Positions 31,871 to 35,681 of a stretch of 64,000 bases of DNA are shown in pieces. Source of the stretch: Aquabacterium sp. OR-4 (GTDB lineage Bacteria > Pseudomonadota > Gammaproteobacteria > Burkholderiales > Burkholderiaceae_C); the NCBI RefSeq assembly GCF_025290835.2, contig NZ_JAOCQD020000002.1:1550001-1614000 (forward strand). The letters are read 5' to 3'. The position numbers and the translations under genes are program-made. The notes beneath the pieces were generated by a model. It was given only the letters and a program-made list of their open reading frames with translations. It was not told the DNA's origin and did not search any database. The number at the start of each line of letters is the position of its first letter. Position 1 is the stretch's first letter.

Positions 31871-32461
31871 TCACAGGCTTCCTTTGGTTGACGGGATCAC
31901 GCCGGCCGAGCGTGCATCGAGCGTCAGCGCCATGCGCAGCGCGCGGCCGAAGGCCTTGAACACCGTCTCGCACTGGTGGTGGGCGTTGATGCCCTTGAGG
32001 TTGTCGATGTGCAGCGACACCAGCGCATGGTTCACGAAGCCCTGGAAGAACTCGAACACCAGCTGGGTGTCGAGCTGGCCGATCATGCCGGCGGTGAACG
32101 GGATGTGCTGGTGCAGGCCGGGGCGGCCCGAAAAATCGACCACCACGCGCGACAGGGCTTCGTCCAGCGGCACGTAGCTGTGGCCGTAGCGGGTGAGGCC
32201 CTTCTTGTCGCCCACGGCCTGGGCCACTGCCTGGCCGAGGGTGATGCCCACGTCTTCCACCGTGTGGTGGCCGTCGATGTGCAGGTCGCCCTCGCAGCTC
32301 ACCTCGAGGTCGATCAGGCCGTGGCGGGCGATCTGGTCCAGCATGTGGTCGAAAAAGCCGATGCCGGTGGCCAGCCGGGCCTGGCCGCTGCCGTCGAGGT
32401 TGACGCGCACGCGGATCTGGGTCTCGTTGGTGCTGCGGGTGACTTCTGCAATGCGATCCAT
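31871..32461 (-). CDS. hisB: Imidazoleglycerol-phosphate dehydratase HisB
   Basis: This 196-residue monofunctional dehydratase lacks the phosphatase domain found in enterobacterial HisB. The metal-binding motifs are [25 protein letters not shown] and the late NAHHQCE. ATG 32461 ([11 protein letters not shown]) is chosen; an upstream ATG at 32494 would add eleven residues that overlap little with family members. Follows hisC after 23 bases. Confidence 0.95.
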
Positions 32462-32484
32462 GGTGGTGGCGTCTTTGGCGGGGT

Positions 32485-33582
32485 TCACAGGCATTCGGCC
32501 AGCGCGGCGATCAGCTGCCCGGTTTCATCGGCGGTGCCCACGGTCAGGCGCAGGCAGTTGGCCAGCAGCGGGTGCAGCGCGCTGACGTTCTTGATCAGGA
32601 TGCCGCGCGCCTTCAAGGCCGCGAAGGTCTTGGCGGCATCAGGAAAGCGTGCCAGCACCATGTTGGCCTCGCTGGGCCAGGGGTGCACACCGGGCAGGGC
32701 CTGCAGTGCGGCGTAGAGGCGCTGGCGCTGCTCGCGGATGGCGGTGGCCTGGCGCGCATAGTCGTCCACATGTTCCAGCGCGAACAGGCCGGCCTCGGCA
32801 TTGAGCACGCTGATGTTGAAGGGCGGGCGCAGCTTGTCGATCTGGTCGGTGAGGGCCGTGCGGCCGATCAGGTAGCCGATGCGCACGCCGGCCAGGCCGA
32901 ACTTGCTCATCGTGCGCATCACCAGCACATGCGGGTGGCGGCGCAGGCGGCTCATCGAGTCGCGCGCGGCAAAGGGCTGGTAGGCCTCGTCCATCACCAC
33001 CAGGCCCTGCACCGCGGCCATGGCCTCGATGCAGCGCTCGATGGCCGCGTCGTCCCACAGGTTGGCCGTGGGGTTGTTGGGGTACGAGAGGTACAGCAGG
33101 GCCGGCTTGTGCCGGGCAATCGCCGCCAGCATGGCCGGCTCGTCGAGCTCGAAATCGGCGCTCAGCGGCACGCCGACAAAGCCGATGCCCTGCAGCTGCG
33201 CCGACAGCCCGTACATCACGAAGCTGGGCAGCGGCGACAGGATCACCGCGCCCGGCTTGGCGCAGGCCATGCTCAGCAGGGTGATCAGCTCGTCGGAGCC
33301 ATTGCCCATCACCAGGCCGCAACCCTCGGGCATCTGCGCATGGGCCGCCAGTGCGGCCTTCAGGTCGTCGCCGCGCTCGGCCGGGTAGCGGTTGATGGCC
33401 ACGCGGCCCAGGCGCTCGCCCAGCTCGCGCTGCAGCGCCTCGGGCAGGCGGTGCGGGTTCTCCATCGTGTCGAGCTTGACCAGGCCGGCGCTCGGCTGCA
33501 CGGCATAGGCGTGCAGGCCCTGGATGTCCTGGCGGATCACGCGTTGCAGGATGGCGGCAAGGGAATCGCTGGAATCGCTCAT
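32485..33582 (-). CDS. hisC: Histidinol-phosphate aminotransferase HisC
   Basis: This 365-residue fold-type I PLP enzyme makes histidinol phosphate. [47 protein letters not shown] and the PLP-lysine region [16 protein letters not shown] are intact. Its ATG overlaps the stop of the PIN-toxin gene (ATGA, 33579-33582) rather than the hisD stop as in typical his operons, so its translation now appears coupled to the toxin gene. Confidence 0.96.
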
Positions 33583-34028
33583 GAGGTCTCGTCGAGCAGG
33601 CTGACGTCGGCCTGGAAGGGGTTGACGATGCGCAGCGTGTCGATGCGCTGGTCGTGCTGCAGGTCTTCGGTGAGCAGCACGGTGCAGCCTTGCTGCTGGG
33701 CCGAGGCCACCATCAACGCATCCCAGTAGTGGAATCGGTGGCGCGCCTCCACCGCCCAGGCCGCTTCCAGGGTGTGGTGGTCGATCTGCCAGGGCTGCCA
33801 GGCCTGCAGGCGCCGGATCTCGGCGCGCGCATCACCCGCCGCCACGGGCGTCGGGAACTTGCGGCGGATGACGGTGTAGTACTCATTGAGCACCTGGGTA
33901 CTCAGCCGGCCGCAGCGACGCTGCCAGCACGCCGCCAGCCAGGCTCGCGCCGCGTCGCGCTTGCCGATGTCGTGGTCATCGGCCGCGTACACCAGCACAT
34001 GGGTGTCGATGAACGCCAGCACCGTCAT
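33579..34028 (-). CDS. PIN-domain ribonuclease toxin (VapC-like)
   Basis: This 149-residue single-domain PIN protein belongs to a family of Mg-dependent RNases acting as toxins. The first acidic residue is in FIDTHVLVYAADD (Asp8), a conserved Glu lies in QVLNEYYTVI, and the later acids are in HYWDALMVASA and LLTEDLQHDQRI. The start overlaps the antitoxin stop (34025-34028) and the stop overlaps hisC, so the toxin is embedded between two translationally coupled genes in the histidine operon. All expected acidic residues are visible, so it is probably active. Confidence 0.88.
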   Translation of the reverse strand: MTVLAFIDTHVLVYAADDHDIGKRDAARAWLAACWQRRCGRLSTQVLNEYYTVIRRKFPTPVAAGDARAEIRRLQAWQPWQIDHHTLEAAWAVEARHRFHYWDALMVASAQQQGCTVLLTEDLQHDQRIDTLRIVNPFQADVSLLDETS

Positions 34029-34270
34029 GGCGACTGGCGATCCAGCGAACGGTCGTTGATCGCCTCGCGGGAGGGATAGCGCCCATCGGACTTGCCGATG
34101 CTCTTGAACTCCAGCGCCTCGCGCATGGCGCGCTCGTAGGCGTCGTCGTGCCGCATCTTCTCGGCCAGCATCTCGCCGATCAGGCGCGACACGCTGGTGT
34201 TGCGGCGCGCCGCCTCCATGCGCGCCCAGTCGGCAACGCTGTCTTCCATCGTGACCGTGACGTTCTTCAT
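34025..34270 (-). CDS. Ribbon-helix-helix antitoxin of the PIN toxin
   Basis: This 81-residue protein has an N-terminal RHH DNA-binding segment (MKNVTVTMEDSVADWARMEAA, then NTSVSRLIGEMLAEKM) and a charged C-terminus that would bind the toxin. ATG 34270 is chosen because the family motif starts there; the frame is open upstream through the operator. Antitoxins of this class repress their own operon; a repeat-rich operator (34286-34324) lies immediately upstream. Confidence 0.85.
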   Translation of the reverse strand: MKNVTVTMEDSVADWARMEAARRNTSVSRLIGEMLAEKMRHDDAYERAMREALEFKSIGKSDGRYPSREAINDRSLDRQSP

Positions 34271-34285
34271 GATCGAGCCACTGAG

Positions 34286-34324
34286 TTCGTGCAACACGAT
34301 TTTCGTGCTACACGAACTTCGTGT
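34286..34324 (-). promoter_or_regulatory. Antitoxin operator with alternating TTCGTG/CACGAA half-sites
   Basis: Within 39 bases there are five half-sites: TTCGTG (34286), CACGA (34295), TTCGTG (34302), CACGAA (34311) and TTCGTG (34318). They form overlapping palindromes, the best being ACACGAA-C-TTCGTGT (34310-34324, 7-bp arms). The patch is far richer in A/T than its surroundings and lies between hisD and the antitoxin start, as expected for cooperative binding by an RHH dimer array. Confidence 0.7.
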
Positions 34325-34334
34325 CAATGACGCT

Positions 34335-35681
34335 TCAGCGCTTGAGCCGCAGCTCGGCCGCCCGGGCGTGCGCCTGCAGGCCCTCGCCATAGGCCAGCTC
34401 GGCGGCGATCGGGCCCAGCACCTGGGCGCCGGCCTCGCTCACCTCGATCAGGCTGCTGCGCTTTTGGAAGTCGTACACACCCAGCGGCGAGCTGAAGCGT
34501 GCGGTGCCGCTGGTGGGCAGCACATGGTTGGGGCCGGCGCAGTAGTCGCCCAGGCTCTCGCTGGTGAAGGCGCCCAGGAAGATGGCGCCGGCGTGCCGCA
34601 GCAGCGGCTCCCAGCGCTGCGGCTCGCGGCTGCTCACCTCCAGGTGCTCGGGCGCGATGCGGTTGCTGATGGCGCAGGCCTCTTCCATGTTGGCGGTGTG
34701 GATCAGCGCACCGCGGCCTGCCAGGCTGGCGCGGATCACATCCTGGCGCGGCATGCCGTCGATCAGGCGCTCGATCGCCGCCTTGACCTGGGCGATGTAG
34801 CCGGCATCGGGGCTCAGCAGAATGCTCTGCGCCAGCTCGTCGTGCTCGGCCTGGCTGAACAGGTCCATCGCCACCCAGTCGGGCGGCGTGCTGCCGTCGG
34901 CCAGCACCAGGATCTCGCTGGGCCCGGCAATCATGTCGATGCCCACCTGGCCGAACACGCGGCGCTTGGCGGCGGCCACGTAGGCATTGCCGGGGCCGGT
35001 GATCTTGTCCACCCGCGGGATGGTGGCGGTGCCGTAGGCCAGTGCCGCCACGGCCTGCGCACCGCCCACGGTGAAGGCGCGGCTGACGCCGGCCACGTGG
35101 GCGGCGGCCAGCACCAGCGGGTTCTTCTCGCCACGCGCTTGACCTGAAACGCCATCCCTGCGGGCCGGCGTGGGCACCACCATGATGATCTCGCCCACAC
35201 CGGCCACATGGGCGGGGATGGCGTTCATCAGCACGCTGCTCGGGTAGGCGGCCTTGCCGCCCGGCACGTAGATGCCCACGCGGTCGAGCGGCATGACCTT
35301 CTGGCCCAGCAGCGTGCCGTCTTCGTCGCGGTACTGCCAGCTCAGGCCGCAGGCCTGCTTCTGGCGCTCGTGGTAGCTGCGCACACGGTGCGCGGCCGAT
35401 TCGAGCGCCGCGCGCTGGGCCGGCGTGATGGCGTCAAACGCCGCCTTCAACTCGTCGCGCGTGAGTTCCAGGGCGGCCACGCTGTCGGCCTGCAGGTGGT
35501 CGAACAGCGCGGTGTAGCGCAGCACTGCGGCGTCGCCATGGCGGCGCACCTCGGCCAGGATGTCGGCCACACGGGCCTCGATCGCGTCGTCGGTCTCGGC
35601 CGACCAGTGCAGCACCTGCTGGAAGGCCGCCTCGAAATCGGGTTGCGTGGTGCTGAGCTGGCGGATGGCGACGGCGGTCAT
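34335..35681 (-). CDS. hisD: Histidinol dehydrogenase HisD
   Basis: This 448-residue Zn/NAD enzyme oxidises histidinol to histidine in two steps. Motifs include [30 protein letters not shown], the [10 protein letters not shown] region and [19 protein letters not shown] with zinc/base residues. A short Arg/Asp insertion ([16 protein letters not shown], about residues 172-187) is slightly longer than in many homologues. It follows hisG after 20 bases. Downstream, instead of hisC, comes the toxin-antitoxin pair. Confidence 0.96.

Follow-up and report, generated by a model that had tools for sequence, protein, structure and literature searches.

A predicted VapBC-like pair linked to hisC across a bacterial family may act as a switch of the histidine operon

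What keeps a toxin–antitoxin (TA) pair inside a biosynthetic operon is the question raised by a 64,000-nucleotide (nt) stretch of the Aquabacterium sp. OR-4 genome (contig NZ_JAOCQD020000002.1, positions 1,550,001 to 1,614,000; hereafter the window), in which a predicted ribbon-helix-helix (RHH) antitoxin and a PIN-domain toxin stand between hisD and hisC. By comparison with related genomes, we consider it probable (roughly 0.6) that this pair is a domesticated VapBC-like module that would serve chiefly as a switch of the hisC operon and not as a poison for the cell. The basis for this reading is the order of the elements, the fixed 16-nt spacing of operator-like boxes, linkage to hisC and not to hisD, the grouping of the toxins in one clade, the loss of catalytic acids under purifying selection, and fusion of the two proteins.

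To begin with the distribution, we searched 299 genomes of the same family, which gave toxin matches in 135 at 1e-5 and hisC matches in 250 at 1e-60. Among 150 hisC places, the antitoxin and toxin lie just upstream of hisC in 53, hisD directly precedes hisC in 78, and 19 show other arrangements. A further 51 places centred on the toxin match, mostly in genomes other than those of the 150 hisC places, contributed 39 antitoxin–toxin–hisC arrangements along with 12 PIN genes found elsewhere, which are not beside hisC and for which the antitoxin match is absent or poor. Altogether, the antitoxin–toxin–hisC order is present in at least 92 of the 299 family genomes, this being a lower bound as the other 100 hisC genomes were covered via the toxin search only. 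The same order occurs on a short contig (L028 in our locus numbering), a 93rd case that is excluded from the counts. Moreover, when named species were scanned with an antitoxin alignment, 78 of the best 80 of 217 loci proved to be antitoxin–toxin–hisC by rule, and L309 is likewise so by its coordinates, with a hisC match that overlaps the toxin match. Among the genera with scanned loci are Rubrivivax, Ideonella, Aquabacterium, Roseateles, Mitsuaria, Pelomonas, Inhella, Rhizobacter, Ramlibacter, Sphaerotilus, and Paucibacter. In the same scan, a locus from a Rubrivivax metagenome-assembled genome (L348, 3001-3300) showed an intact antitoxin and a truncated toxin, with no hisC in the stretch, and may be a copy that has decayed or been displaced.

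Upstream of the antitoxin in the window, we noticed three operator-like boxes at 16-nt spacing, with a promoter-like site lying within the box region (one such site found, as compared to a mean of 0.1 in shuffled sequences). For the other loci, a box was accepted if CACGAAnTTCGTG-like with at least 9 of the 12 fixed bases, and a box pair was scored where at least two boxes at exactly 16-nt spacing lay no more than 150 nt upstream of the antitoxin. So defined, the box pair is found at 92 of 92 pair loci. Upstream of hisC genes that lack the toxin and antitoxin it occurs in 0 of 97 cases, and mononucleotide shuffling produced it in 0 of 1840. In fact, the exact double box is present in 53 of the 299 family genomes, once in each, and the same 53 all belong to the 92 pair loci. 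A reversed control of the exact double motif gave none in the 299 genomes, and in 274 genomes drawn from the class the motif itself turned up in one, a member of the same family. Weaker sites beyond the exact double box were searched for in the window's genome only, where, allowing as many as 3 mismatches, the combined pattern of boxes 1 and 2 occurs at a single place, upstream of the antitoxin. Judged by the exact double box, the operator is thus confined to the promoter of its presumed target, as for a dedicated regulator, and a wider regulon was rejected given one exact double box per genome where present.

Two operator designs can be told apart. A three-box design is found in 18 loci including the window's, with TTGACA before box 1 in 15 of the 18 and, in the window and the other examples viewed (uncounted), a -10-like hexamer within box 2. 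Of the 74 loci with the two-box design, 69 have TAnnnT after box 2 (as against 10% of shuffles), and in 53 the start codon comes 13 or 14 nt past box 2. Among the best 80 of the 217 named-species loci, a perfect 8-base core lies no more than 170 nt upstream in 68. Operator remnants at loci without the pair were considered and rejected, single cores being scattered over 12 of the 97 such loci, none of which has the box pair; two of these cores, at -30 of hisC (L047 and L048), are within the apparent hisD end.

As for origin, a quick tree of 117 PIN proteins places the 92 his-linked members on one side of one branch (SH-aLRT, the Shimodaira–Hasegawa-like approximate likelihood ratio test, 91), where shuffling gives a mean of 23 changes; as a caveat on this tree, L222, L202, L207, and L187 are long branches. 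The toxin E-value alone fails to separate his-linked from other PIN genes, which the tree does, with the his-linked L222 (7.5e-24) scoring below L219-L221, which are not his-linked. Linkage to hisC across species holds for 92 of 92 members of the clade, which were selected by linkage and then found to form one clade. Their nearest outside relatives are free-standing RHH–PIN pairs in other families of the order, beside which no hisC match was found within the 1.5 kb examined. In addition, toxin and hisC distances are correlated (r 0.50), with 0 of 999 permutations as high. The suggestion that the pair is a stray accessory insertion is therefore not borne out, since the his-linked toxins form one clade and are found beside hisC in 92 of 299 genomes, and a recent arrival as accessory DNA was rejected given this single clade and its family-wide linkage.

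The same linkage bears on an anti-phage role, for which the hisC neighbourhood would be incidental and which we regard as extremely unlikely: defence genes tend to move, whereas the his-linked clade is beside hisC at 92 of 92 loci. Some TA pairs do act against phages, as also set out in PMC10440598. A PADLOC search at E 0.1 returned 0 families for the toxin, the antitoxin, and the fused form, and for want of a match there a defence system was rejected.

In the window, the genes run along the minus strand in the order hisG, hisD, a 64-nt gap, antitoxin, PIN toxin, hisC, hisB, and later his genes (Table 1), with hisG, hisB, and the later genes named from reading their translations. A preliminary description of this DNA had placed the antitoxin and PIN toxin between hisD and hisC, had noted ATGA overlaps at both junctions, and had proposed an operator ahead of the pair. 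The coordinates and the Pfam and TIGR matches bear out the placement (with RHH as its weakest part), both overlaps are real, and the operator-like region is richer than was claimed, having three boxes and a promoter-like pair. The toxin matches the Pfam PIN family with an E-value of 2.2e-12, has a single match in its own genome, and, when its profile was searched against PDB sequences, gave PcrIIC1 as the sole match (E 9.6e-10). With a PIN domain, four acids at the positions that we take to be catalytic, and a small predicted antitoxin gene directly upstream with an overlap, the window's pair shares three features with VapBC.

Table 1. Features of the hisD–hisC junction in the window (positions count from the first letter of the window).
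Feature	Position	Strand	Basis
hisD, histidinol dehydrogenase, upstream of the pair	34335..35681	-	Pfam PF00815; TIGR00069
Promoter-like pair, TTGACA (34327-34322), 17 nt, GAAAAT (34304-34299)	34299..34327	-	promoter-like site scan
Operator-like box 1, CACGAAGTTCGTG	34311..34323	-	box pair conserved in 92/92 loci
Operator-like box 2, CACGAAAATCGTG, 16 nt from box 1, overlaps the -10-like hexamer	34295..34307	-	pattern match
Operator-like box 3, CACGAACTCAGTG, imperfect	34279..34291	-	sequence
Predicted RHH antitoxin, 81 residues, ATG at 34270	34025..34270	-	DUF6364 below cut-off; weak Foldseek matches to the model; conserved in related loci
PIN-domain toxin, VapC-like, 149 residues	33579..34028	-	PF01850; D8, E49, D103, and D122 present (which we take to be the catalytic pattern)
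ATGA overlap, antitoxin stop/toxin start	34025..34028	-	sequence
ATGA overlap, toxin stop/hisC start	33579..33582	-	sequence
hisC, histidinol-phosphate transaminase, gene linked to the pair	32485..33582	-	TIGR01141
hisB frame, overlaps the hisC end	31871..32494	-	open reading frame; named from translation

The pair follows hisC and not hisD. At only 30 of the 92 loci, the window's included, is hisD within 300 nt of the antitoxin, and in 24 of 67 cases (some of them two stretches of one genome) the nearest upstream frame, chosen by codon composition, is on the opposite strand. Ten of these 24 opposite-strand frames were scanned, and eight gave Pfam matches, representing two chemoreceptors, a beta-lactamase-family protein, a helix-turn-helix (HTH)/cupin protein, two GNATs, a DinB, and a questin-oxidase-like protein, at 110 to 563 nt from the antitoxin match. 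At loci with such opposite-strand genes upstream of the pair, read-through from hisD is unlikely, and transcription of the operon would begin at the antitoxin promoter. The distance from the toxin stop to the approximate first codon of hisC ranges from -41 to 118 nt over the 92 loci, and so a separate strong promoter before hisC, raised in the preliminary description as the contrary case, would have little room outside the toxin gene (a gap of at most 118 nt). In 50 of the 92 loci the end of the toxin gene could overlap the start of hisC by 4 nt, and with the chosen starts a 4-nt antitoxin/toxin overlap is found in 45. We also observed that L184, L191, and L196 have kept the pair beside a hisC only 32-35% identical to the window's. 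At these three loci hisB is 78-86% identical to the window's, which suggests in-place replacement of hisC.

Alternatively, hisC could be transcribed solely from a promoter upstream of hisG or hisD, with the pair as a neutral passenger. Such an arrangement would sit well with the 30 loci at which hisD is close by, the window's included, and with the finding of no terminator-like site on the minus strand of 33400-34600. This we nevertheless judge very unlikely, as it is at odds with the opposite-strand genes found upstream of the pair elsewhere, with a promoter-like site inside the operator, and with purifying selection on both genes.

Three kinds of side observation concern genes near the pair or hisC. 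At L196 (4349-4630, plus strand), the closest frame on the opposite strand ahead of the pair has a translation that reads as AbrB-type antitoxin-like. Where hisD stands before hisC with no pair, a C-terminal hisD extension of 165-189 residues is seen at L068, L108, L119, L151, and L174, which resembles a GNAT acetyltransferase. At L115 and L177, also hisD–hisC loci without the pair, the hisD frame seems to continue with no stop for some 1.1 kb beyond the start of hisC, a possible hisD–hisC fusion.

With regard to the active site, the aspartate at position 8 is invariant (92 of 92), 87 toxins have E or D at position 49, 88 have D at position 103, and 54 have an acidic residue at position 122. 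Taken together, the first three acids are kept in 84 of the 92 toxins, all four in 50, and the canonical DEDD set in 29. At least one of the first three is broken in eight members (L044, L045, L145, L183, L200, L202, L207, and L222), all of which keep the box pair. In the sister pair L145/L183, where the glutamate is lost, the ratio of nonsynonymous to synonymous substitution rates (dN/dS) is 0.09 for the toxin (dS 1.08) and 0.25 for hisC. More generally, 15 of 17 close pairs have a toxin dN/dS no higher than 0.26, a value exceeded only by L203/L217 (0.56) and L211/L214 (0.31). On average, the antitoxins are 74% identical over their first 45 residues and 59% over their full length (with the fused rows counted in), as against 65% for hisC and 50% for the toxin.

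A fused form was found in one sub-clade (L203, L204, L217, and L218), in which a single frame of 233-243 residues, preceded by the boxes, encodes both antitoxin and PIN domain. Among the best 120 of 341 homologues of the fused protein, 65 are full-length fusions (at least 96% coverage, 224-264 residues), and carriers among the homologues listed include Oryzisolibacter propanilivorax, Pulveribacter suum, and Simplicispira psychrophila. Of those aligned, 30 of 30 match both PIN and DUF6364; reading this alignment by eye, we found the fourth acid in none and the glutamate missing in five. Fusion prevents the usual degradation of an antitoxin separately from its toxin, and this points to a regulatory role. 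A regulatory job, as opposed to retention, is favoured by the fused form together with the lost catalytic acids and the fixed operator.

Two other explanations turn on these acids. One holds that this is an ordinary, active VapBC-type pair, kept as the overlap with hisC makes a clean loss costly, with an operator that serves its own balance and hisC carried along. In line with it, the window's toxin has four acids, 29 of 92 members have the canonical set, the hisC overlap is possible in 50 of 92, and a TA-like MNT-HEPN pair lies in a lysine biosynthesis operon in one of two Thermus strains (PMC2701414). We consider it unlikely, however, as glutamate-less members are under strong purifying selection, fusion to the antitoxin is frequent, and the hisC linkage persists in many loci without gene overlap and with other genes on the far side. 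According to the other, the control is post-transcriptional, exerted by the PIN protein as an active ribonuclease on histidine-pathway RNA, for example his mRNA or tRNA(His). PIN/VapC proteins are RNases, and the first three acids stand in 84 of the 92, yet the eight members without one or more of these acids still keep the box pair and hisC, making this explanation improbable.

Returning to a domesticated switch of the hisC operon, we can suggest how it might work. Helped by the PIN protein in the role of corepressor, the antitoxin would occupy the boxes and block the promoter, whose parts are interwoven with them, such that protein on the boxes should exclude the polymerase. A drop in antitoxin, for instance by proteolysis under amino-acid starvation, would open the promoter, and the antitoxin, the toxin, HisC, and the downstream enzymes would then be made, with the stop/start overlap coupling hisC translation to that of the toxin. 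The hisB gene is likely a further target of the transcript that carries the pair and hisC, and in the window read-through from hisD probably supplements the internal promoter. Conditional cooperativity is known in other systems, and promoter opening as the antitoxin falls has been reported for RelB and Lon (PMC4803016). The more specific assignment of roles, in which the antitoxin is a his-operon repressor and the PIN protein a corepressor arm that has lost its nuclease in several lineages and been fused into a one-chain regulator in one, strikes us as evenly poised. As to the preliminary suggestion that hisC and its downstream genes may be partly under TA control, the pair and hisC do form an overlapped unit behind a TA-type operator, and the comparison of hisD–hisC junctions in related genomes has strengthened the idea of such control; the splicing-in of the pair as stray accessory DNA is not supported.

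Several points weigh against such a switch. Repression, induction, and coupling are steps that we infer from sequence. In 84 of the 92 loci, the window's among them, the toxin keeps the first three acids and may be active, and the window's own toxin, with all four acids, may still be so; given this intact active site, regulator and toxin roles in the window's pair need not be mutually exclusive. Moreover, hisD adjoins the pair in the window, and so the his promoter may feed hisC too. The RHH assignment of the antitoxin is weak, with a Pfam match to DUF6364 (E 2e-4) below the family cut-off and nothing below E 0.65 in a PDB sequence search with the antitoxin profile. Its structure model (mean predicted local distance difference test score, pLDDT, 71.8) matched many antitoxins and Arc, CopG, and VapB chains in Foldseek, which we take to be RHH folds, at a best E of only 0.38. 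An RHH type is thus no more than likely for the antitoxin. The model of the fused protein (mean pLDDT 52) is unusable. On the hisC tree (186 rows, with three diverged hisC excluded), the presence of the pair is patchy, needing 19 changes, of which 9 are forced by starred branches (shuffled mean 62), and these changes indicate that the pair has been lost or transferred repeatedly. Lastly, a split between hisD and hisC goes with the pair in raw counts (61 of 89 with it, 14 of 97 without; Fisher 2e-14), but the same comparison on 9 independent pairs gave about 2.9 for, 0.1 against, and 6.1 with no difference (median p 0.25), and as it is not significant there, the split was not used as evidence.

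Among known systems, the closest likeness is to VapBC and FitAB, type II pairs of an RHH antitoxin and a PIN toxin, with which this pair shares the predicted kinds of protein, their order, the small overlap, and the operator upstream of the antitoxin; FitAB on DNA, with its PIN and RHH motifs, is the subject of work cited in PMC4803016. Unlike these, the present pair is fixed before one metabolic gene, has one dedicated operator per genome, has lost acids in some members, and is fused in one sub-clade. The MNT-HEPN module of Thermus thermophilus HB8 is likewise a TA-like pair in an amino-acid (lysine) operon, though one strain has it and another lacks it, which was taken as recent mobility (PMC2701414), whereas here one hisC-linked clade extends family-wide. 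The EzeT protein and the Phd-RelE fusion of Ralstonia eutropha also join antitoxin and toxin in one polypeptide, with other toxin and antitoxin folds and with no link to a metabolic operon described in the text accessible to us (PMC4826407). The HisR repressor and the his attenuators similarly exert local control of histidine genes, but HisR is of the TrpR family and the attenuators are RNA leaders, neither of which involves a TA pair. In the literature, subscription papers on the his operon being outside our reach, we found no account of such a pair in a his operon. Moreover, a review of the his operon (PMC10138114) and two surveys of histidine and proteobacterial regulation (PMC9413887 and PMC5343134) have 0 occurrences of the word toxin in their main texts, and we found no regulator of histidine biosynthesis named for these bacteria in the two surveys.

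The purpose of chromosomal TA pairs is a matter of long-standing argument. In this family, the same operator design and the same metabolic operon are common to intact pairs, to forms that have lost active-site acids, and to a fused chain, and along these natural stages domestication into a regulator could be tested step by step. If the reading is true, it would supply a regulator of histidine biosynthesis for these bacteria, and a core amino-acid operon would, across the family, have a former TA module as its dedicated switch of transcription.

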